Part shown: positions 30,097 to 40,411 of the stretch, piece by piece
Position numbering within the stretch: position 1 is the first letter of the stretch
Layout: the number at the start of each line of letters is the position of its first letter
Source: a bacterium
Lineage (GTDB): Bacteria > Cyanobacteriota > Vampirovibrionia > Gastranaerophilales > Gastranaerophilaceae
Assembly (NCBI GenBank): GCA_017626055.1
Contig: JAGAJM010000004.1
Span: 248,001-312,000 of the forward strand
Direction of reading: 5' to 3'
Length of the DNA: 64,000 nt
The notes under the pieces: model-generated
The model's input: only the letters and a program-made list of their open reading frames with translations
Told to the model about the DNA's origin: nothing
Database searches by the model: none
Program-made: the position numbers and the translations under genes

Positions 30097-30218
30097 AATA
30101 TACCTCTCTTGTTTAGTAATATTATACTTACAAAAAATTTTTTTTAAATAGCTTTTCAAAAAAAGATGTTTATGATATAGTGGATTATGTAATCGAATAG
30201 AGGTTACAGTCGCCGAAT

Positions 30219-30307
30219 GGAGAAATGGCCGAGTGGCTTAAGGCGGCACCCTGCTAAGGTGTTGTATGGGGTTACCTGTACCGTGGGTTCAAATCCCACT
30301 TTCTCCG
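30219..30307 (+). tRNA. tRNA-Ser (anticodon GCU)
   Basis: An 89-nt class II tRNA. The acceptor GGAGAAA (30219-30225) pairs with TTTCTCC (30300-30306), followed by discriminator G. The anticodon loop contains GCT at 30253-30255. A long variable arm follows, and the T loop reads GGTTCAAATCC. No CCA is encoded, consistent with the cca gene at 1561. It lies at the edge of the accessory island that begins at 30481. I did not find a copy of its 3' end on the island's far side. Confidence 0.95.
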
Positions 30308-30350
30308 AATTTAAGTCGAAACTTAGAGAATAAGTGAAGATAGAATTTAC

Positions 30351-30377
30351 AAAAACCGCCTCAATAGGGCGGTTTTT
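30351..30377. terminator. Bidirectional terminator between tRNA-Ser and the island
   Basis: AAAAACCGCC (30351-30360) pairs with GGCGGTTTTT (30368-30377) around a short loop. It ends the tRNA transcript and the convergent coiled-coil gene transcript. Confidence 0.85.
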
Positions 30378-30480
30378 AGCATGTGATTTTATTTAGAGAA
30401 TTTTTATTGCTAAATTTTGGTTTATTTTTATCAAATATTCTTCAAAATTCTCTTTTTCAAATTTTCAATGTGCAGATTAT

Positions 30481-30954
30481 TTATACAAAGAAAAATTTAT
30501 AAGTAATAATCCCCAATATTAGTATATTTATAATTGATATTATAATTAACCATATTTTTACATTTGAAAGAGTATTCGTGATTTCTTCTAATTTGTGTGA
30601 AATTGTTTTGACTATTTGCAAATTTTGGACTTCAAGTTCTTTTATTAATTTATTTTCGGTTTTTTCTAAGTTCTTTTTATTTTTATCTTCAATATCAATT
30701 AACTGTTCTGGAAATTTTAATGCTGTTTCTTTTAATTCAATAATGTTTGTTCGAATTGAGTTATTTAAATCTGAAAATTCTTCATTGTATTCATTCAAAT
30801 GATTTATATTTTCTTTAAATGCATCATTTATTTCCAAATGTTTTTTTCCAATTGTTCTAAGAGTTTGAAAAATCTCAGAAATTTTACCGATTGAATTAGC
30901 ACTTGTTTTTAGTTTTTCAATTTCTTGTAATAAGCTATCATTGTAGTTTTCCAT
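30481..30954 (-). CDS. Coiled-coil protein with C-terminal membrane anchor, partner of the RecQ-DUF559 gene
   Basis: A 157-residue protein. Residues 1-130 are one long, highly charged helix with heptad-like spacing (LLQEIEKLKTSAN, LNNSIRTNIIELK, NLEKTENKLIKEL). Residues 134-156 are a single hydrophobic segment rich in Ile at the very C-terminus, so it is probably tail-anchored with the coiled coil in the cytoplasm. It starts 7 nt after the TGA of the RecQ-like gene and its GAGGT ribosome site overlaps that stop region, so translation is coupled. It matches no defence component I know. It could tether the helicase or act as a membrane effector; that is inference. Confidence 0.8.
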   Translation of the reverse strand: MENYNDSLLQEIEKLKTSANSIGKISEIFQTLRTIGKKHLEINDAFKENINHLNEYNEEFSDLNNSIRTNIIELKETALKFPEQLIDIEDKNKKNLEKTENKLIKELEVQNLQIVKTISHKLEEITNTLSNVKIWLIIISIINILILGIITYKFFFV

Positions 30955-30961
30955 ATTTACC

Positions 30962-33900
30962 TCATTTCAAAATATTTTCTATTATATTGTTAATTGATTT
31001 ATTTGCATAACTCATTAATAAATAATTTGTATATGAGTCGTTTAAAAATTTATTTATTGTAATAATATATTTATTCTTATCAAAGTATTTAAAGATACAT
31101 TTTGCAAGTAAAACTCTATTTTTATCACTTTGTTGTATCTTGCCAATTTTTAAAATATTTATGATTATTGCTTGTTTTAGGCTTTCATTTTCAATTTTAG
31201 AGATTTGATTTAATGCTTTTTCAAATCTTGTTTGACCATCTGAATCTTTAAATTCATCTAATAAGTATCTTGCCAAGCCAGATACCAAATTTAGGGCTGT
31301 ATTATTAGGAAATTCCTCTAATAGACGCATTAATATATTTTTTAATTCAATAATTCCATCATCATTTTTTAATTTTTCGGTTATTCTATTAGATGAATCA
31401 TATATGTAAAATAATTCAAATGCTTTTCCGAGTTCGAAAGGATGTTCAGATAAATATACTAATTTATGAGTTGCTTCATTTACAGTGAAATAACTCTCTA
31501 TGTTTTTTTTGAATTTCGCTGATACTAATTTTTCATCAACACCATCTGAAATTTCTAAAATATATTTATCACAGGCCTCATAAACATTTTTTAATGATTG
31601 CCTACGGTATCCAACAAATTTGTCAAAACTCCATTCAAGAAGAATTTTTATGTACTTATCAAGTTCTGAAATATTTTCATGCATTATTGACTTGTATTGT
31701 TTATATTCATCATTTGTTTCTATGTTTTCAAATGAAAAATCTTTGTCATATTTAGAAATTTGTTTTTGGCATGCAAGTCTAATATTTTCAATTTTAATAT
31801 TATCTTTGAAATCGGTTTCCAAATTTTCAGAATTATAATCTATTGTCCAATCTGTTATAATTCCAAGTTGGTATAATCTGTACAATATTTTTTCAATATA
31901 TTTAATATCTGTTTTGAGAAATTCACTTTTGGGCAAATTCCTGCAATTAATATTTTTAGATATAGATGAACTTAATTCATAATATATATTTTTAATTTCT
32001 TGTAATTGTTTATCAATAGGAGTAAAATTGTCTTGTAAAAAATATAATTGTCTTTTTACATCTTGATTTAAGAGGTTTTTACTTTCTGATAGTTTTAATA
32101 ACTCTATTCTAGAAGTATTTAAATCCCAAACTTTTTCGAGTTGTGTTTTATCTGTTTCTTTTGAAAATAGAATATAGCATTTTGCTTTATTTTGAATAAA
32201 TAATCTTTTTGCTCGTCCAGCCCTTCCAGCTTCTTGGTACAAAGACTCTAGGGAACCAGGAATTCCATAATGGAAGGTATATTTTATGTTTCCTTTATTT
32301 ACCCCCATTCCAAAAGACTTCGTTGCAATTAAAATTTTAAATTCATTATTTTTAAATCCATTTTGCACATTTTCTTTCTGGTGATTAGAAATTTTACCTG
32401 AATAATATTTTATATCTGTGTCAGAAAATTGAATATTTAAATCATTGCTAATTTTTGCACATCCGAATTTGCTATCTTCTGAAGCGTATGGTGTAAAAAC
32501 TATTGTTGCAAAATTTTCATTTGAATCTATTATACTTTTTAATTTTTCTTGTAGCGTCTTGAAAGTTTTATTTGTTGCATCAATTACAAAAAATTCTAAT
32601 TCTTCTCTCGCATAGTTAATGGGAGTTTTTACATTTTCATCATTTGTAATGTTAAATGCCAATTTTAAATCTTTTAGTACTGATAATGATGCTGTTGCGG
32701 TAAGTGCAATCAGTGAAATATCAGCATTACAATGTGTTCGGATAGTATTCACTAAGGTAAGATATGATGTTCTAAAATCATGCCCCCATTCTGATAAACA
32801 ATGAGCTTCATCAACAACAGCATAAGCGATTTTGGGAAGTTTTTTTAACTTTGTTCTAAATTTTTTATCTTGAAATCTTTCAGGTGATATAAAAATAAAA
32901 AAGCATTTTTTATTTGAAAAATCTTCTAAAACTTCAGATTTTTCAATTGTATTTTTATTACTGTTTATACTTTCTGTTCTCGAAAAATAAAAGTTGTTAA
33001 GTTCTGTTATTTGATCATCCATTAAAGATATAATCGGAGAAATAATAAAACTTGGTGCTGGTTGAAGAATGCCTGCCAATTGATAGCATATAGATTTTCC
33101 AGAACCAGTTGGTAATAATCCAATTGTATCTTTTCTGGATAAAACATTTTTGATTATTTCTAGTTGCCCTTCTCTGAATGCCAAAGATTTAAAATCTAAA
33201 GTTTCATCTGTTTGTAAAAATAAATTCCAGAGAAGATATTTAAGAATTTTATTCTTTGTAGATTTTGTTTTTTTATCATTAAAGTTATATTTAATAAGAT
33301 TGGCAATTTCAACTTGATAGTAATCAACTTGTTTTATTGCATAGCTATCAAGTGTTGTTGAATTACAACTTTTAAATTGTTTATACGTATCAATATAATC
33401 TGTTCTTATAAAATAAATATTTGGATATCTTTGATTAATATCAGAATATCTTTTCAATAAGCTAAAATCTATTTTGACATTTCGTTCTCTTGAAAATTGT
33501 TCTAAAGTTCGAATTTTTGTAATTTTTACTTTGGGTTTTATAAATTCTATATCTTGTAACTTAAATAAACAAGCAAACCAAATAAATAAATCCGATATTG
33601 CTAATTTAAGTAATCTTTCTGTGTTCTCATCATTATCAAATAATTCAAATTCCCAAGTTTTGTTTTCAAAAGAAATTTTATTATACTTTAATAGTTCAAG
33701 TATAAAGATTTGATAACGCATTATTATTGTTGATTCAAATATAGGATTAGATAAATCATAGATTTCATTGAATGCATCTTTATACAGTGTTAATATTTTA
33801 TGCTTAGAAATATATTCTCTAAGTTCTTTTTTTACTGTTTCAAATGATTTACTTTTAATTTCATCTGTCGTTAATCTGACTGTTTTAATCCCATGATCGT

Positions 33901-34432
33901 TAAGGTATTTATCTCTTTTAATATCCAGAATATGTTGATTTTGTTCTTGATGTTGAGAACCATCTATTTCAATAACTAAATAAGCTTGAGGTAAATAAAA
34001 ATCAACTTGTTGATTTTTAAACTCTTTTTTATTTTCTTGTGTAATGTCAGATATTAAAACCTCTGGGAGAAGTAAATTCTTTACAAATTTACATTCTTCT
34101 CCAAGAATGTTATCAATAATTTTTTGATAAAAATATTGAGCAGGATTGTATAATGAATCACTTGAACCCTTAATTAATCTTTCCCAAATATTAATATCTT
34201 TTGAAATTAAAACTTTATGCTTTTTAAATTCTGAGGATGTTTGAATACTCCCAATCCGTTTTTGCAGATAGGTAGACATTAAGGTGGGTTTCCCTCTTTG
34301 TAATATATTTTTAACTACACAAATACTCTGATAGTATTTATTGTTAATATTAGCGTTACCATCTAAATTTTGAATTACAAAATTGTGGTTAGTATTTGAA
34401 TAGTTTGCACTATATTGCTTAAGTTTTTTCAA
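30962..34432 (-). CDS. DUF559-type nuclease fused to RecQ-like SF2 helicase
   Basis: An 1156-residue protein. Residues about 105-215 look like the DUF559/Vsr-like endonuclease fold: VDFYLPQAYLVIEIDGSQH with Asp144, Glu155 and Asp157, then DIKRDKYLNDHGIKTVRL. Residues about 420-760 are a RecQ-type helicase: FREGQLEII, Walker A PTGSGKS (441-447), DEAHCLSEWGHDFR (541 on), TATA, GMGVNKGN and YQEAGRAGRA. The last 380 residues are helical and lack the usual RecQ zinc-binding Cys set and HRDC. The gene starts with TTG (ribosome site GAGAGG about 10 nt upstream). It is more AT-rich than the flanking chromosome. Its partner gene is at 30481. A role in invader DNA cleavage is likely but unproven. Confidence 0.85.
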   Translation of the reverse strand: MKKLKQYSANYSNTNHNFVIQNLDGNANINNKYYQSICVVKNILQRGKPTLMSTYLQKRIGSIQTSSEFKKHKVLISKDINIWERLIKGSSDSLYNPAQYFYQKIIDNILGEECKFVKNLLLPEVLISDITQENKKEFKNQQVDFYLPQAYLVIEIDGSQHQEQNQHILDIKRDKYLNDHGIKTVRLTTDEIKSKSFETVKKELREYISKHKILTLYKDAFNEIYDLSNPIFESTIIMRYQIFILELLKYNKISFENKTWEFELFDNDENTERLLKLAISDLFIWFACLFKLQDIEFIKPKVKITKIRTLEQFSRERNVKIDFSLLKRYSDINQRYPNIYFIRTDYIDTYKQFKSCNSTTLDSYAIKQVDYYQVEIANLIKYNFNDKKTKSTKNKILKYLLWNLFLQTDETLDFKSLAFREGQLEIIKNVLSRKDTIGLLPTGSGKSICYQLAGILQPAPSFIISPIISLMDDQITELNNFYFSRTESINSNKNTIEKSEVLEDFSNKKCFFIFISPERFQDKKFRTKLKKLPKIAYAVVDEAHCLSEWGHDFRTSYLTLVNTIRTHCNADISLIALTATASLSVLKDLKLAFNITNDENVKTPINYAREELEFFVIDATNKTFKTLQEKLKSIIDSNENFATIVFTPYASEDSKFGCAKISNDLNIQFSDTDIKYYSGKISNHQKENVQNGFKNNEFKILIATKSFGMGVNKGNIKYTFHYGIPGSLESLYQEAGRAGRAKRLFIQNKAKCYILFSKETDKTQLEKVWDLNTSRIELLKLSESKNLLNQDVKRQLYFLQDNFTPIDKQLQEIKNIYYELSSSISKNINCRNLPKSEFLKTDIKYIEKILYRLYQLGIITDWTIDYNSENLETDFKDNIKIENIRLACQKQISKYDKDFSFENIETNDEYKQYKSIMHENISELDKYIKILLEWSFDKFVGYRRQSLKNVYEACDKYILEISDGVDEKLVSAKFKKNIESYFTVNEATHKLVYLSEHPFELGKAFELFYIYDSSNRITEKLKNDDGIIELKNILMRLLEEFPNNTALNLVSGLARYLLDEFKDSDGQTRFEKALNQISKIENESLKQAIIINILKIGKIQQSDKNRVLLAKCIFKYFDKNKYIITINKFLNDSYTNYLLMSYANKSINNIIENILK

Positions 34433-34530
34433 CAGAACATAACCTCTCTTACATATGGTTGTAATCGACTATGTTATAGAAAAACTTTAAATATTTTCCA
34501 TGTTTCTTAACAATATTTAACAAATATTAA

Positions 34531-34545
34531 AATAACAGGGAATTT
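34531..34545 (+). repeat. Left arm of a 15-bp inverted repeat around the DnaB-like gene
   Basis: AATAACAGGGAATTT here is perfectly complementary to 35559-35573. The two arms enclose about 1 kb holding only the ATPase gene and its structured flanks. Confidence 0.6.
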
Positions 34546-34566
34546 GTAACAGAGTCTTTTGCTCTT

Positions 34567-34587
34567 TGGACTTTAATATTATGAATT
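34567..34587 (+). repeat. Left copy of a 20-bp direct repeat around the DnaB-like gene
   Basis: TGGACTTTAATATTATGAAT and on to 34587 matches 35659-35678 with one mismatch and one gap. Both copies lie in non-coding DNA on the two sides of the ATPase gene. Confidence 0.5.
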
Positions 34588-34600
34588 GAAAACGAAGTGA

Positions 34601-34687
34601 ACCTACACAAAGCGAAAGTTTTGTTTTAATACATCGTTCTAAGTAAGCGATGTATTGTTGTGTGCTATGTCCAGAATTGACGTAGGT
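34601..34687 (+). ncRNA. Structured leader or RNA element upstream of the DnaB-like ATPase gene
   Basis: An outer stem ACCTAC (34601-34606) with GTAGGT (34682-34687) encloses two hairpins: ACAAA/TTTGT (34607-34624) and a perfect 9-bp AATACATCG/CGATGTATT (34628-34656) with an 11-nt loop. This is a three-way-junction-like fold drawn by eye. It lies 40 nt upstream of the ATG, so it could be a regulatory leader or a separate small RNA. I know no riboswitch with this layout. Confidence 0.4.
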
Positions 34688-34727
34688 GAATGTCATAATA
34701 AAGTTATGATTAACAAAAGGAGGTTTT

Positions 34728-35534
34728 ATGAGTAATGAAAAAGTGTTAGAAAATATTTTAAAAGACATTAAAGAACCTAAGGAGCAAATTCTTAAAACAG
34801 GTTTTGAAGAATTAGATTCTATTTTGACGGAAGTAGAAAATTCTTCAATTATAACAATTTCGGGACGACCATCCATGGGAAAAACAGCATTTGCACTTAC
34901 TTTATTAAAGAATTTTTGCAAGCAAAATAAAAAATGCTTGTATTTAAGCTCAAGAGAATCAGAAAAATTATTATTAAAGCGTATGCTAATACAAAATGCA
35001 GAAATACCTTTTTACAAAATTAATGGATCAAAATTTAGAAAGGAAGAAATAAAAAAATTAGAATTAGCTAAAAATGAAATTAGTAGTTGGGATTTTAAAA
35101 TAGAATATCTTTCAAGCCTTGAACTTACCGATATTGAAAATGTGCTAGCAGAATTAAAACTGAATTATGTTTTTATCGAAGATATACAATTATTTATGTA
35201 TGATAAAGATTGGATTTTAAAAGAATTAAAAAATTTAGCACATAGATATGACTTGATAATATTCATCACATCGTCACTATCTAGAAAATTAGAAAAAAGA
35301 ACTGATAAACGTCCGTTTTTGTACGATTTAAAACAAACTGCTACGATTGAAGACATATCAGATATTGTTATGATGATTTACAGGGAAGATTACTATAATT
35401 ATAAATTTGATTTAGAAAATAATGCGGAAATTATTATTGCTAAAAACAACTTTGGTGGAGTTTATACTTTTTATTTAAATTTTGATCCAAAATTTGCAAA
35501 ATTTTCTGAAGTGACAAAAAATTATGATTTTTAA
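34728..35534 (+). CDS. Stand-alone DnaB-like (RecA-fold) ATPase
   Basis: A 268-residue protein that aligns with the C-terminal helicase domain of replicative DnaB. TGFEELDSIL, Walker A GRPSMGKTAFAL (about residues 46-57), FIEDIQLF (Walker B region, usually IDYLQL), SSLSRKLEKRTDKRP and ATIEDISDIVMMIYRED, then EIIIAKNNFGG, follow the DnaB order. The N-terminal primase-interacting domain is missing and several motifs are altered, so it is unlikely to be the main replicative helicase. A strong AAAGGAGG ribosome site precedes the ATG. It is the only plus-strand gene in this island and is enclosed by inverted and direct repeats. It may come from a phage or plasmid, or serve defence. Confidence 0.82.
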   Translation: MSNEKVLENILKDIKEPKEQILKTGFEELDSILTEVENSSIITISGRPSMGKTAFALTLLKNFCKQNKKCLYLSSRESEKLLLKRMLIQNAEIPFYKINGSKFRKEEIKKLELAKNEISSWDFKIEYLSSLELTDIENVLAELKLNYVFIEDIQLFMYDKDWILKELKNLAHRYDLIIFITSSLSRKLEKRTDKRPFLYDLKQTATIEDISDIVMMIYREDYYNYKFDLENNAEIIIAKNNFGGVYTFYLNFDPKFAKFSEVTKNYDF

Positions 35535-35556
35535 ATTTTTAATATTCAAATTCTCT

Positions 35557-35589
35557 GAAAATTCCCTGTTATTAATTTAGGGAATTTTC
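35557..35589 (+). terminator. Terminator of the DnaB-like gene
   Basis: A perfect 11-bp stem GAAAATTCCCT/AGGGAATTTTC with an 11-nt loop, followed by TTTTG. Its left arm overlaps the right inverted-repeat arm at 35559-35573. Confidence 0.75.
35559..35573 (-). repeat. Right arm of the 15-bp inverted repeat
   Basis: AAATTCCCTGTTATT is the exact complement of 34531-34545, in inverted orientation on the other side of the ATPase gene. Confidence 0.6.
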
Positions 35590-35599
35590 TTTTGCGTTT

Positions 35600-35678
35600 A
35601 TTCAATAGGCGTTAGCTTAGATTCGCTATTTGAATTAAAGCCCGATAACTAATGTTTCTGGACTTTAATTTTATAATT
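35600..35678. other. Two further hairpins and right direct-repeat copy downstream of the ATPase gene
   Basis: ATTCAATAGGCG (35600-35611) pairs with CGCTATTTGAAT (35624-35635) with two bulges. AATTAAAG (35633-35640) pairs with CTTTAATT (35663-35670), with CC/GG continuing inward after one mismatch. The direct repeat copy TGGACTTTAATTTTATAATT occupies 35659-35678. No ORF is present. Confidence 0.4.
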
Positions 35679-35699
35679 TATTAACCTATGTGGATATAA

Positions 35700-36935
35700 C
35701 TATTTTAAGATTTCTGCAAGTTCATCTTTTATAGTTGTTAGATTTGATTTTAAATCTGTATGTTTTAGGTTAATTGTTTTGAAATTTATTTCATATTTTT
35801 CAGTAATTTCTTCATCTGTATTTAAGAAATAGTTATCAATATTTGGTCGAGTGTTATCCCATTGAGGGTATAATAGAATTGCTTTGTGTGCATTATGAAG
35901 TAAGCAATATGTTGAAACTTGGAATACATCAGCATTTGAAAAGTCGTTTGCATTTCGGAATTTTTTATATTTTGTGTCTAGAACAATTTTTTCATTACCC
36001 TTTTTCACCATTATATCAACGTAGGTGTTACGTTTTTTGTTATGGTCACCACGCAAAAGTTTTCGTCCTTTTTGAGATTTTACTTCGCATTTAAAATCGT
36101 CTTTGTATTTATTAATAAGCTCAAATACAAATTCTTCGAATAATTTGTTCATATCCCAGAGAAGTGTAATATTTTCAAATTTGTTTTTTGATAAATCAAC
36201 GCTTGTTTGTTCAATAAACATTTTTGCCAAATTTAATGGCTTTTTAAATAATTTCTGGTTGCGTGTTAGCTTTATTTTATTGGCTTTGAATTTATCAAAT
36301 CTGATAAATTTTATCTCAGAGTAATAATTCATTATGAACTTAAGAATTTTTTTGTTATAGCGGTCTTGAGAAATATTATATAGACAGGTTGAAACAAACA
36401 AGAATAATTGGTTCAGTTCGTTATTTTCTGAAAATTCATCAAATTCGCAATAAAATTTTGATTGGTTTGTACAATTATAACGAATGTTTTCTGAAAATTT
36501 GAGTTTACCTTTGAGAAAACTTAGGTTATCTTCTTCCCTAACATATTTTTTAGGTGTCAGACGTTTTAAGCAATCAAATAGTGAATTAGCAAATTCTCTA
36601 ATTAAGATTTCAATAAACGGATTTTTTGCTGAGGCAAGTTTAGCATCATTACTTGTTTTTATGTCTAATTTTTTTGTAAAAGAAAGCATAAAAATCAAGT
36701 TTTTTAGGATATTTTCATTGTTATTATCTTTATCACAAATTAGCTTTGGTAAAATTTGGATATGTGTTTTTTTGTATTTTATAACCCCAACCCAAGAGTT
36801 AGCTTTCACTCCTGTTGGTGTAACTTGTAGTGCGGAAGTCAGATTTTGACACTTGATGTAAGACTGTAATTTCGATAAATCACAGTCTTTTATATCGATT
36901 TCTTCGTATTCTTTCACATCAAAGGATTCTGTCAC
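35700..36935 (-). CDS. mcrC: McrC-type nuclease subunit of an McrBC restriction system
   Basis: A 411-residue McrC. The N-terminal half has the beta-rich ALQVTPTGVKANSWVGVIKYKKTHIQILPK segment (key residues G-W-V-G and L-P-K). The C-terminal PD-(D/E)xK nuclease is visible as LRGDHNKKRNTYVDIMVKKGNEKIVLDTKYKKF in outline: Asp of VDIM, then the DTKYK motif near residue 331. McrC supplies cleavage to the GTP-driven McrB ring. The GTG start shares its G with the mcrB stop (TAGTG), so the pair is tightly coupled. GC content is low and codon use AT-rich like the RecQ-like gene, consistent with an acquired cassette. Confidence 0.88.
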   Translation of the reverse strand: MTESFDVKEYEEIDIKDCDLSKLQSYIKCQNLTSALQVTPTGVKANSWVGVIKYKKTHIQILPKLICDKDNNNENILKNLIFMLSFTKKLDIKTSNDAKLASAKNPFIEILIREFANSLFDCLKRLTPKKYVREEDNLSFLKGKLKFSENIRYNCTNQSKFYCEFDEFSENNELNQLFLFVSTCLYNISQDRYNKKILKFIMNYYSEIKFIRFDKFKANKIKLTRNQKLFKKPLNLAKMFIEQTSVDLSKNKFENITLLWDMNKLFEEFVFELINKYKDDFKCEVKSQKGRKLLRGDHNKKRNTYVDIMVKKGNEKIVLDTKYKKFRNANDFSNADVFQVSTYCLLHNAHKAILLYPQWDNTRPNIDNYFLNTDEEITEKYEINFKTINLKHTDLKSNLTTIKDELAEILK

Positions 36936-38914
36936 TATTTTTCCTCTTGTTCATGTTTTTTTGTTTCAAAAGCATTTTTTAGAGCTTTTGAAAAATCAAT
37001 ATCTTTTTGAGGGGTGAAATCAAATGTTTCATCTTCATCACAAGTGTAATCAGTTGCAAATTTTACTTGTGACAGTTTCTTGATGAAAGATTCTCCATTA
37101 TCTTGAGCTTTACCTAATAGAGCTTGTAGTTTGTCCCAATCTCCATAAAAATATTCATTTAGAAGCGGTATAATGCAATCAAACCAAACCTGTTTGAAAT
37201 TGGTTTCAAGGTCTTTGTCAGCTTTTAAGTTCATAAAATAGCTGTGACCGATTTGGTGATCTCTATCTAAAAGAACAGATATTCTTTCGTTTAGTGTTTT
37301 GAAAATATCTTGGATATTTAAACCATGAACTTCTAATTCTTCATCAATTAGAGTTGAATCAGGCATCATCTCTTTGAATGTAAATCTACGGCGAAGAGCA
37401 ATATCAATAGATGCAATAGATCTGTCAGATGTGTTCATTGTGCCGATGATGTATAGGTTTTTGGGAACAGTGAATGGATCTTGGGAATAAGGTAATTTAA
37501 GTGATAAACTTTCACGTTTATCTTCTTCAATTAAAGTGATAAGTTCCCCAAAGATTTTTGAAATATTCCCTCTGTTAATTTCATCAATGATAAGAATGTA
37601 TTTGTTTGAGTTTTTAGTTGTCTGTATATTTAATTTGTAATGTTCGTTCAAGTAATCGAGAATTCCTTGAACATAACATTTTCTACCATTTTTAAATATT
37701 TCATTTTGCAAATAATCTTTGGTAATCACGCCAACGCTATTTCTATCAAAATTTTCGCCAGTGTATATTTTAAGATTATTCTTTTTGTTTGTTTTTATCC
37801 CAAATTCACTGCCATTAGGTGTTGTAAGTATTAGTAGTTTTTTTGAAGAGTTTAAATCTTTTATGAATTGATCATAAATTTGGTCAAAGTTCTTTTCAAT
37901 TTTGATAGTTGTTTGTGCGTTAGAACATATTTTTTTAAAAATTCCATCTTTCAATTCGTATGTTAATTTATCTTCACTATTCAAATCAGGTTTAATTCCT
38001 TCTACAAATTCTTCATAAGAATATGATTGGTGGAAAGTAACAAATTCAATTTGACCAAGTTGTTTTAATTCATTAAATCTTTCTTGTAGTTTTTCGTAAT
38101 TATCTTTGTGTTTATCATAAAAATCATTATCTGTAATTTTTAGTGCTTCAACAACTGTATTATAAGTTTTACCTGTTCCAGGTGGTCCGTATAGTATTTG
38201 GTTTAGTGGTTGGTCTGATTTTGTATTCATTTGTTCTGTCCCGTTTGGTATTTCTGTGTCTTGATTTACTAGCTTAGTGAGTATATATAGTATTTTTTCG
38301 ATTGCTTCATTTAGTGTTCGTTCTGAATTTATCCAATATTCTCCATTTAATTTCCAGCCATAAGAATCGGGTACTTTTTTGCAATTCTTTTTGAGTTTTT
38401 CATTTAGTTCTTCATATTGAATTAAAATTTTAAATTTTGCTGGTTTCTTTTGAACATAATGAACTTCAACTATATTATTGTTGTCAAATTTAAGAGCGGT
38501 ATATTGTTTGGGTTGCTCATTTACTGTTAAGCCTAAGGATATTGCATAATCTAATAAGTTTTGACGTAATGTATTAACAAAAATTTGTCCAGCTTCATTA
38601 TATGGTGTTGTAATAGTGATTTGTTGGGGATTAGGTATAAGCTCTAGTAATGCAGATGCTGCAGTCCAAGTATCCTCAGTATAAGATGTTTTTGGTCCGA
38701 TTTTTTTATCATTATTAAGAATTATATTGTTTGCAATTTCTAGAACATATTTTAATGGATATTGAACTTCTTTATATGTAATAAAGTGTGTGGAATAATC
38801 TCTGTGAGTGTTAGAGTTGTTTTTAATGTGTTCAATTGCTTGGATAATTATATTTTCGTTTATATTTTGACAAATATTTACTAAATCTTCTTTCAATATA
38901 TTTCCAAATGCCAT
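36935..38914 (-). CDS. mcrB: McrB-type AAA+ GTPase of an McrBC restriction system
   Basis: A 659-residue protein. The first 230 residues are a DNA-recognition region unlike E. coli McrB (no DUF3578 that I can see); a part around 160-215 with GWKLNGEYWINSERTLNEA resembles small DUF5655-like modules, low certainty. The AAA+ part has Walker A LYGPPGTGKT near residue 238, LIIDEINRGNISKIFGELITL (Walker B), and the McrB signature GTMNTSDRSIASIDIALRRRF. McrB binds modified or otherwise marked DNA and, with McrC, cleaves it. The ATG has an AAGGGG ribosome site. Target specificity cannot be inferred from the N-terminal domain. Confidence 0.9.
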   Translation of the reverse strand: MAFGNILKEDLVNICQNINENIIIQAIEHIKNNSNTHRDYSTHFITYKEVQYPLKYVLEIANNIILNNDKKIGPKTSYTEDTWTAASALLELIPNPQQITITTPYNEAGQIFVNTLRQNLLDYAISLGLTVNEQPKQYTALKFDNNNIVEVHYVQKKPAKFKILIQYEELNEKLKKNCKKVPDSYGWKLNGEYWINSERTLNEAIEKILYILTKLVNQDTEIPNGTEQMNTKSDQPLNQILYGPPGTGKTYNTVVEALKITDNDFYDKHKDNYEKLQERFNELKQLGQIEFVTFHQSYSYEEFVEGIKPDLNSEDKLTYELKDGIFKKICSNAQTTIKIEKNFDQIYDQFIKDLNSSKKLLILTTPNGSEFGIKTNKKNNLKIYTGENFDRNSVGVITKDYLQNEIFKNGRKCYVQGILDYLNEHYKLNIQTTKNSNKYILIIDEINRGNISKIFGELITLIEEDKRESLSLKLPYSQDPFTVPKNLYIIGTMNTSDRSIASIDIALRRRFTFKEMMPDSTLIDEELEVHGLNIQDIFKTLNERISVLLDRDHQIGHSYFMNLKADKDLETNFKQVWFDCIIPLLNEYFYGDWDKLQALLGKAQDNGESFIKKLSQVKFATDYTCDEDETFDFTPQKDIDFSKALKNAFETKKHEQEEK

Positions 38915-38987
38915 ACTTAACCCCTTTTCCTTTTAAATTAGCATAAAAATTTATTATTCAAAGTATTGTCAATAAAGTTTTCTTACC

Positions 38988-39098
38988 TTATAAAATTTGT
39001 CCAAATGGTTTCTTCTTTTCAAATTTAATCACAACGATTTCGGGTGGGCAGTTGAAACGAAGTGGCAAAATGCTTGTTCCAACTCCTGTTGATACTGT
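38988..39098 (-). pseudogene. C-terminal remnant of a calcineurin-like metallophosphoesterase (YkuE/YaeI type)
   Basis: A 36-codon stretch ending at TAA (38988-38990) reads TVSTGVGTSILPLRFNCPPE followed by IVVIKFEKK. This is the conserved tail of YkuE/YaeI-like phosphoesterases, where SRGIGTSxLPLRFxCPPEI is usual. None of the upstream metal-binding motifs (DxH, GNHD, GHTH) are present on either side. Directly upstream lies the end of a different frame, the 68-residue membrane ORF. The gene has lost its 5' portion, most likely when the adjacent island was inserted or rearranged. Confidence 0.7.
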
Positions 39099-39115
39099 TT
39101 TATTGTAGCACAAAT

Positions 39116-39448: not shown

Positions 39449-40411
39449 ATGGAAGATAAACCAAGATATTCACGAGTTTCGGATATTTTAGATTTGGCAA
39501 TTTTTATGTCATCTAAGATGCAAGGGGTTACAATAAACGAAATTGCTGAGCGTTATAACGTTTCACGTAGAACTGCTGAGCGTATGAGGGATAGTTTAAC
39601 TTGTATTTTCCCGCAAATCGATGAAATTGAAACTGATGATGTTCAAAAACATTGGGGTTTTAGTAATTATTCAATTAGTCAATTGATTTCGTTTACTCCA
39701 AAAGAGCTTGCGAATATTGAGCAACTTCAACGCAGAACAACTAACAGTGAAATGAAAGACGAATTAGGTAGAACTGTTGAGAAAATAAAATCTTTCAACC
39801 GCAAAAATATAAACTCTATTGAAAAAAATATTGAACTTATTATGCAAACTGAGGGGTATGCCGTTCGTCAAATGCCTCAATATAAAATTAGTTTAGAAAT
39901 GTTAGCGGTTGTTCGTGAGGCTGTTCAGTTTTCTAAGATGGTGACTGGGGTTTATCACGACAAAGAACGCTTGCTTGAACCTTTGGGTATGATTTATGGC
40001 GAAAAGATTTACCTTGTAGCAAGAGAAAAAGCTAAGGGTGAAGAGATTTATACGTATTTGTTGCACAAGTTTGAAAATCTAAAATTGACAGACAAAGTTT
40101 TTGATAAAGGTGATTTCAATTTACAAGAACACACAAATAAATCTTTTGGAGTTTTCCAAGGAGAAATTTTAGATGTGAAATTGTCATTTGCTCCAGAGTT
40201 AGCCCCAGAAGCAAGTCAGTACGATTTCCACCCAACTCAAAAGGGTAAATTGGAAGAAGATGGATCTTACACAGTAAAGTTCAAAGCTAGTGGAAGTAAA
40301 GAAATTATCTGGCATGTATTTAGGTGGGGAGCGGGGTGTAAAATCCTATCTCCAAAATCCTTACAAAAAGATTATAAAAAGTATCTACAAGATTGTTTGA
40401 ACAATATTTAA
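39449..40411 (+). CDS. WYL-domain transcriptional regulator
   Basis: A 320-residue protein. The N-terminal winged helix-turn-helix spans about residues 10-50 (GVTINEIAERYNVSRRTAERMRDSL in outline: NEIAE, NVSRRTAER). A WYL ligand-binding region follows at about 140-215 (VYHDKERLLEPLGMIYGEKIYLVAREK), then a WCX-type C-terminal extension ending with a Trp-rich IIWHVFRWGAGC. WYL regulators often control defence islands by sensing nucleic acids or metabolites. It sits at the island's edge, with a strong AAGGAGTTGGAG ribosome site and an operator-like site at its promoter. Confidence 0.88.
   Translation: MEDKPRYSRVSDILDLAIFMSSKMQGVTINEIAERYNVSRRTAERMRDSLTCIFPQIDEIETDDVQKHWGFSNYSISQLISFTPKELANIEQLQRRTTNSEMKDELGRTVEKIKSFNRKNINSIEKNIELIMQTEGYAVRQMPQYKISLEMLAVVREAVQFSKMVTGVYHDKERLLEPLGMIYGEKIYLVAREKAKGEEIYTYLLHKFENLKLTDKVFDKGDFNLQEHTNKSFGVFQGEILDVKLSFAPELAPEASQYDFHPTQKGKLEEDGSYTVKFKASGSKEIIWHVFRWGAGCKILSPKSLQKDYKKYLQDCLNNI

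Follow-up and report, generated by a model that had tools for sequence, protein, structure and literature searches.

An RT-less member of a retron-linked family of DnaB-like ATPases behind a tRNA-Ser gene in a Gastranaerophilaceae defence island

Retron reverse transcriptases (RTs) carry the motifs NAxxH, YxDD and VTG. Further marks of a retron are a structured non-coding RNA beside the RT, flanked by a1/a2 inverted repeats, and msDNA whose reverse transcription is primed from a branching G. In the accessible part of a 2022 review, msr, msd and RT are described as sharing one transcript (PMC8867640). Retrons are grouped by their effectors, with a 2025 PLoS Biology paper distinguishing 13 retron types in a main text that contains neither "DnaB" nor "helicase" (PMC12548924), and a 2026 preprint counting sixteen retron subtypes with no "DnaB" in its accessible text (PMC13405049). 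Across the literature searched, as far as its accessible text extends, no retron with a DnaB-type partner is described.

Here we examine a gene for a 268-aa DnaB-like ATPase (34728..35534, plus strand; identified by Pfam and trees) within a window of 64,000 nucleotides, which is positions 248,001 to 312,000 of contig JAGAJM010000004.1 (GCA_017626055.1, Gastranaerophilaceae). Sequence comparison places this gene as an RT-less member of a small family of DnaB-like ATPases that mostly form the first gene of an ATPase-RT operon. A first-pass annotation had seen the gene as enclosed by an inverted and a direct repeat, and had offered a small mobile cassette, a regulatory RNA pair or a relic of a phage replication module as explanations. 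The account that we consider probable as a whole instead joins a retron-linked ATPase that lacks its RT, flanking repeats that derive from terminators, a retron-like parent cassette, and a solo gene that works as a helicase mimic.

Repeats, terminators and the tRNA-Ser insertion site

Both repeats were confirmed. The 15-bp inverted repeat has 34531-34545 as the exact inverse of 35559-35573, and the direct repeat aligns 34567-34587 with 35659-35679 at 86% match without gaps. A search for the repeats elsewhere, which the annotation had proposed, found the exact 15-mer at these two places only in the whole genome, plus one site with one mismatch. Inverted repeats of at least 15 exact bases with arms more than 200 bases apart arose in 3 of 300 dinucleotide shuffles of the 1,270-base region; the repeat is unusual but not beyond chance.

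Comparison with the near relative L052, a locus of the sheep-rectum genome RGIG6412 whose ATPase protein is 85% identical to that of the window, revealed how these repeats are composed. There, tRNA-Ser is directly followed by a hairpin, GAATTAAAGTCC...GGACTTTA, then by the gene and by a second terminator copy, such that the two copies (36/44 identical) form direct repeats at both gene ends. In the window, tRNA-Ser (GCT; 30218..30308, plus strand, by ARAGORN) anchors the same hotspot, and the left terminator copy is truncated, being interrupted by a 4.2-kb module that L052 lacks (L052 4830 and 4840 match window 30323 and 34568 in the alignment around it). The left direct-repeat copy (34567..34587, plus strand) is the 3' part of the terminator copy that is whole in L052, and the right one lies within a displaced copy at 35632..35675 (plus strand). 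Judged from these alignments, both members of the direct repeat stem from copies of the tRNA-Ser terminator.

The arms of the inverted repeat belong to different things. Its left arm (34531..34545, plus strand) sits within the neighbouring module and probably does not belong to the cassette; because this arm is missing in L052, the inverted repeat is not a unit end. Its right arm is the 5' stem of the intrinsic terminator of the ATPase gene (35558..35593, plus strand; also in L052), which we read as AAAATTCCCT-loop-AGGGAATTTT at 35558-35588 followed by CTTTT, and which the terminator scan missed because the hairpin loop is 11 bases long. A regulatory RNA pair, as had been suggested, does not hold in that form, since the right arm is a terminator stem. 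Together, the two repeats are ordinary transcription-stop signals and insertion-site scars, not the ends of a mobile unit.

The surrounding defence island consists of modules placed in series behind tRNA-Ser. Between the tRNA and the cassette lies the 4.2-kb module (30309..34566), with a 157-aa ORF and a RecQ/DpdF-like helicase that bears a DUF559 nuclease-like domain, both on the minus strand (30962-34432). Beyond the cassette, profile scans identified McrC and McrB-like genes as the next defence module (35700..38914, minus strand) and a WYL-domain regulator as a candidate controller (39449..40411, plus strand). The ATPase gene is, as first noted, the sole plus-strand gene of this stretch; in 30481-38914 the other plus-strand ORFs of at least 80 aa (83 and 121 aa) are antisense within McrC. 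Between McrB and WYL (window 38980-39100), L052 carries an FMN reductase and a metallophosphoesterase, and the window retains only a remnant of the latter (39011-39096).

We searched the tRNA-Ser region in 46 genomes of the genus, of which 44 matched; the stretch behind the tRNA was taken from 37, and the tRNA itself located in 36. Sequence behind the tRNA was diverse, with 32 different 40-mers in the 35 loci that have at least 40 bases there and a few genomes sharing theirs. The window-type ATPase gene with McrBC occurred at 1 of the 36 loci (that of the L052 genome itself) and the RecQ-like gene at none, absence being informative for 27 loci only, as 9 end less than 500 bases behind the tRNA. 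The 3' end of tRNA-Ser is an insertion hotspot within the defence island, and serial insertion fits because two copies of its terminator flank the gene in L052. The contigs that stop early (L099, L101, L104, L106, L107, L113 and L116-L118) hint at repeated sequence at the hotspot. Near tRNA-Ser in L097, L099, L101, L107, L116 and others, a stretch like ATAGTTTAACAGGACATTT recurs, perhaps an insertion sequence end.

These observations leave it somewhat unlikely that the gene is a small mobile cassette which a site-specific recombinase moves in trans, with the terminator copies as attachment sites. The original suggestion of a cassette stood in part, as the gene does lie in a tRNA-Ser hotspot and has terminator copies on both sides in L052; the inverted repeat as an end of the unit did not. 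The flanking copies, the variety of sequence behind tRNA-Ser, the presence of the gene at a single genus locus and the absence of the adjacent module from L052 all speak for mobility. Against it, the unit is a single DnaB-like gene with no recombinase or integrase, and there is no clear duplication of the tRNA 3' end beside the gene. The precise empty site that the annotation had hoped for, lacking only 34531-35678, was not present among the 36 loci (9 of them with less than 500 bases), and what differs in presence between the window and L052 is the neighbouring helicase module. A DNA-level search for the unit in relatives returned short matches only, mostly chance-like.

ATPase-RT operons, their RNA and their operator

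Homologues of similar size in the genus are followed by an RT in three genomes (G014, G025, G008) and not in two (G002, G038). With the three RTs as queries, 382 genomes of the class yielded 25 RT matches (E <1e-70) in 22 genomes, and the ATPase stood directly in front of all 25. No such ATPase was found within the available flank of the eight next-best RT loci (L151-L158) or of six weaker ones (L123-L128, where L123 is the L151 locus), and no RT match in G000 or around the window gene. All eight RTs scanned with PADLOC best matched retron RT families, and for three RTs the best NCBIfam model was St85, below its curated cut-off. AxxH and [YF]xDD were present in 23/23 RTs, with VLG or LLG replacing VTG in 22/23. 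The ATPase partner gave in PADLOC a weak match to mad8 only. RT relatives on plasmids and phages were less than 60% identical (25-32% among the matches listed).

The sampled cassette loci are neighboured by WYL regulators, PDC-S26 nucleases, UzuA, an IetA-like ATPase and AbiE-like genes, with the AbiE-like and most WYL labels read from translations and one WYL confirmed. The family of ATPase-RT gene pairs is probably an anti-virus system. Directly before the pair, G008 (L032:431-1471) and G340 (L268:5135-6172) carry a 346-aa gene that reads as WG-repeat-like. G340 also has a second, full-length DnaB (L272:17321-18703; a 461-aa frame with the N-terminal domain) near an ATPase-RT cassette.

Behind the RT lies a conserved element (about 120 bases) of a 5' hairpin, a variable hairpin and a terminator. 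Its T-run and a -10-like TATAAT suggest that the transcript runs on the strand opposite to the RT. An alignment of 17 distinct sequences has 95% of its cells paired and changes on both sides at 9 of 19 pairs, values that 0 of 500 shuffles reach, and which are to be read with the structure having been predicted from the same alignment and related rows inflating pair counts. Pair counts exceeded all 500 shuffles on four of five measures, with slid controls 35-50% paired; the number of pair types was not above shuffles (224 of 500).

A covariance model placed this RNA behind the RT in 23 of 26 loci, 18 from its training set and 5 outside. The five held-out loci (the second copy in L267, L268, L135, L150 and L269) matched in the same place with E from 5e-19 to 0.002, two of them weakly at E 0.002. 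The RNA was missed at L140, L147 and L149, the last cut by a contig end. The model gave no score at 11 other RT loci (L151-L158, L123-L125) or at L036, L261 and L052. Six of eight further RT loci had the RNA, in L312 past an intervening ORF. Since matches of E about 1e-5 to 1e-2 also occur in many genomes without such an RT, we counted only those beside a family RT or ATPase.

At the window locus the covariance model found no significant match, and the best score at the corresponding place in L052 was 5.9 bits (E 0.23). A hairpin-rich stretch lies before the window promoter (34590..34660, by fold z), with a fold z of -2.1 for window 34531-34727 and of -4.3 for L052 4860-5000; we are unsure whether it is a terminator, an insulator or a decayed RNA. 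These hairpins 5' of the gene had been considered as retron RNA, for which the covariance model gave no support, and an Rfam scan produced no match above gathering score.

Upstream signals tie the window gene to its RT-linked relatives. By motif comparison, it shares with them a palindromic operator with a GTC-N7-GAC core (34664..34686), followed at the same distance of 15 bases after the second half-site by a -10 element, CATAAT (34694..34699), and then by a ribosome binding site, AAGGAGG (34717..34723; all plus strand). The combination of a G[T/A]C-N7-G[A/T]C core and a -10 hexamer 15 bases on was present before 21 of 26 ATPase genes, the window and L052 included, in a scan that required at least 4 of 6 hexamer positions and allowed offsets of 14 to 16, all being found at exactly 15. 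It was present at 0 of 44 other, hand-chosen gene starts of the window. Of 22 loci whose sequence extends past the RT region, 17 also have a site with the same core behind it (an uncontrolled count). No operator was seen in G474, an RT-less relative from another genus. A GTC-N7-GAC site precedes the window WYL start by 59 bases, without a -10 at the 15-base spacing; that a WYL-family protein controls the candidate operator is a guess from neighbourhood.

The RT-less branch and its possible origins

Trees separated this family from other DnaB-like proteins. In a 64-row tree, built after eight long rows had been excluded (one of them L261, which is RT-less and fell within the family in an earlier quick tree), 26 RT-linked ATPases together with the window, L052 and L036 split from 35 replicative, phage and other DnaB rows with support of 100/100. 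Adding further loci from a search of 383 family genomes gave a 52-row tree, in which 44 family rows split from 8 (100/100), and in which an RT-less branch unites G474 with the window and L052 (100/99). The label "no RT", carried by 10 of these rows, requires at least 6 changes on supported branches.

Relatives also show RTs at various stages of disappearance. Next to an intact ATPase, RT fragments remain in G403 (38 residues), G116 (79 residues in two frames) and G257 (a 93-aa open frame), and in G236 and G493 the RT is gone except for a stretch overlapping the ATPase end. A truncated RT had been considered for the latter two and was discarded, the 22-codon match lying almost wholly in that overlap (query start codon at residue 17). 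Both G236 and G493 keep the RNA 40 bases downstream of the ATPase frame (101 and 106 bits). Loss of the RT from between a kept ATPase and a kept RNA is recorded in two genomes, at L318:3634-3753 and L319:3234-3353. Among the other five RT-less loci searched with the RNA model, L314, L316 and L320 gave no RNA match, and L325 and L321 gave weak ones (21.8 bits, and 19 bits or less). In G002 (L036:444-2301), the RT-less ATPase overlaps a WYL-like gene and lies near an integrase-like frame, to which the family scan gave no name.

Such fragments and missing RTs beside intact ATPases show that an ATPase can outlast its RT, and for the window gene we favour this history, which is not proven. The unlikely alternative that these trees bear on is a DnaB-like defence gene of independent origin, which would be sister to the retron-linked family and would never have been joined to an RT. 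A clade of RT-linked rows excluding the window, L052 and L036 was rejected (p-AU 0.0058), and the best trees nest the window inside RT-linked rows. With L036 removed, however, an RT-linked clade with the window outside was not rejected (p-AU 0.228), so that a sister-group origin may still hold; solo members in two genera would also fit it, and the branch to the window pair is long. Against such an origin stand the operator and spacing, which are the same as in RT-linked relatives, and the losses of the RT seen elsewhere in the family.

The domain assignment first made for the ATPase held, as Pfam DnaB_C covers residues 22-260 (E 8e-49) and there is no DnaB N-terminal domain. The predicted fold (pLDDT 87) has 4esv, DnaB with DNA, as its best structural match, such that the ATPase would have a DnaB fold by prediction. 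At 4 of 7 checked catalytic positions the window and L052 (K T R E S K N) differ from DnaB (K T E D Q K R): the catalytic glutamate is replaced by R, the Walker B aspartate by E, the glutamine by S and the arginine finger by N, with these residue roles presumed from the DnaB literature. Of 26 RT-linked ATPase rows, 3 retain the arginine finger and 14 the catalytic glutamate, compared with 35/35 full-length DnaB rows for each; the Walker A lysine (26/26), Walker B aspartate (26/26) and sensor glutamine (25/26) are nearly always present. The G474 ATPase has E to R and Q to S as in the window, with the Walker B aspartate kept.

Between the window and L052, dN/dS of the ATPase is 0.066/0.218, about 0.30 over 268 codons, as against 0.011/0.109 for McrC; from these values the ATPase evolves faster than McrC yet is constrained, and its codons indicate purifying selection. 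A decaying relic, in which RT and RNA are gone, the catalytic positions are drifting and the ATPase no longer functions, would account for the catalytic positions unlike DnaB and would accord with the RT fragments of other genomes, where the cassette does decay. We judge it quite unlikely, in view of that constraint, of a frame, operator, ribosome site and terminator that are all intact, and of a third member from another genus with the same E to R and Q to S changes.

That the gene is a relic of a phage replication module, as had been proposed, is highly improbable: it would suit the DnaB_C domain, the phage DnaB profile matches and the match of the neighbouring helicase to phrog_33220, but the trees set the window ATPase apart from the phage DnaB rows used with 100/100 (20 viral rows in the starting set, fewer in the trees), the viral rows aligned are all at most 36% identical, and the other neighbours match no PHROGs family or weakly match one of unknown function. 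PHROGs matches of the ATPase itself were DnaB-like and nothing finer, and no relative turned up when viral contigs were scanned with peptide patterns from the window protein. The 157-aa partner and McrC had no PHROGs match, and McrB and WYL had the weak ones. For the whole island, a link to phages is conceivable, since the neighbouring RecQ-like helicase matches phrog_33220, a phage family of unknown function, over nearly its full length (E 2.5e-200).

A proposed mechanism and comparison with known systems

Returning to the RT-less, retron-linked ATPase as our preferred account, the parent cassette would be retron-like, in that a complex of RT, RNA and cDNA may restrain the ATPase effector or sense for it, as in known retrons. 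The ATPase itself would be a DnaB mimic that probably does not unwind DNA, because the family has mostly lost the arginine finger. It would not be able to fire like a normal hexamer, and during phage attack it may block replication by associating with the replicative helicase or loader, or by drawing one of these away. The solo copy of the window could then act alone as a helicase mimic or decoy under transcriptional control, perhaps by a WYL-family regulator.

Relative to the literature searched, we tentatively propose, with more doubt than confidence, an unreported retron type with a DnaB-mimic effector, a separate, convergent template RNA under the same operator, and an effector that repeatedly outlives its RT as a stand-alone replication blocker. 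A retron effector derived from a helicase would suggest a direct way of stopping replication. Because members range from complete cassettes, through loci that lost the RT but kept the RNA, to solo effectors, whether a retron effector needs its RT becomes directly testable within one family. One operator before the ATPase genes, and in many loci also behind the RNA, presents a candidate regulon in gut bacteria.

Compared with described systems, the window ATPase family resembles the C-terminal domain of DnaB in its fold, Walker A and its DKRP and DL motifs. It departs from replicative DnaB in that the window ATPase lacks the N-terminal domain and the family has mostly lost the arginine finger, to which the window ATPase adds replacements of the catalytic glutamate (by R), the Walker B aspartate (by E) and the glutamine (by S). 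The locus is like tRNA-gene insertion hotspots in having modules behind a tRNA gene and repeated terminator copies, and unlike them in that no integrase was found in the window unit. As far as accessible descriptions of WYL-regulated phage defence islands (BrxR type) go, WYL-like genes beside many cassettes and in the window, and a palindromic operator common to cassettes, are points of likeness, whereas the link here between WYL and the cassette operator is one of neighbourhood and a candidate site. To retrons (RT types II-A, III-A and X; St85-like) the cassettes correspond through an RT that Pfam, NCBIfam and PADLOC call retron-type in the RTs scanned, a partner gene in the operon, a structured RNA alongside and defence-type neighbours in sampled loci. 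They differ from retrons in their DnaB-like ATPase partner, in VLG for VTG, in a window copy that has no RT, and in an RNA behind the RT that is probably encoded on the opposite strand, where it would have a promoter and a terminator to itself. In contrast to the retrons of PMC8867640, which as described in its accessible part are single transcripts, the proposed cassette would make its RNA separately, from the opposite strand.
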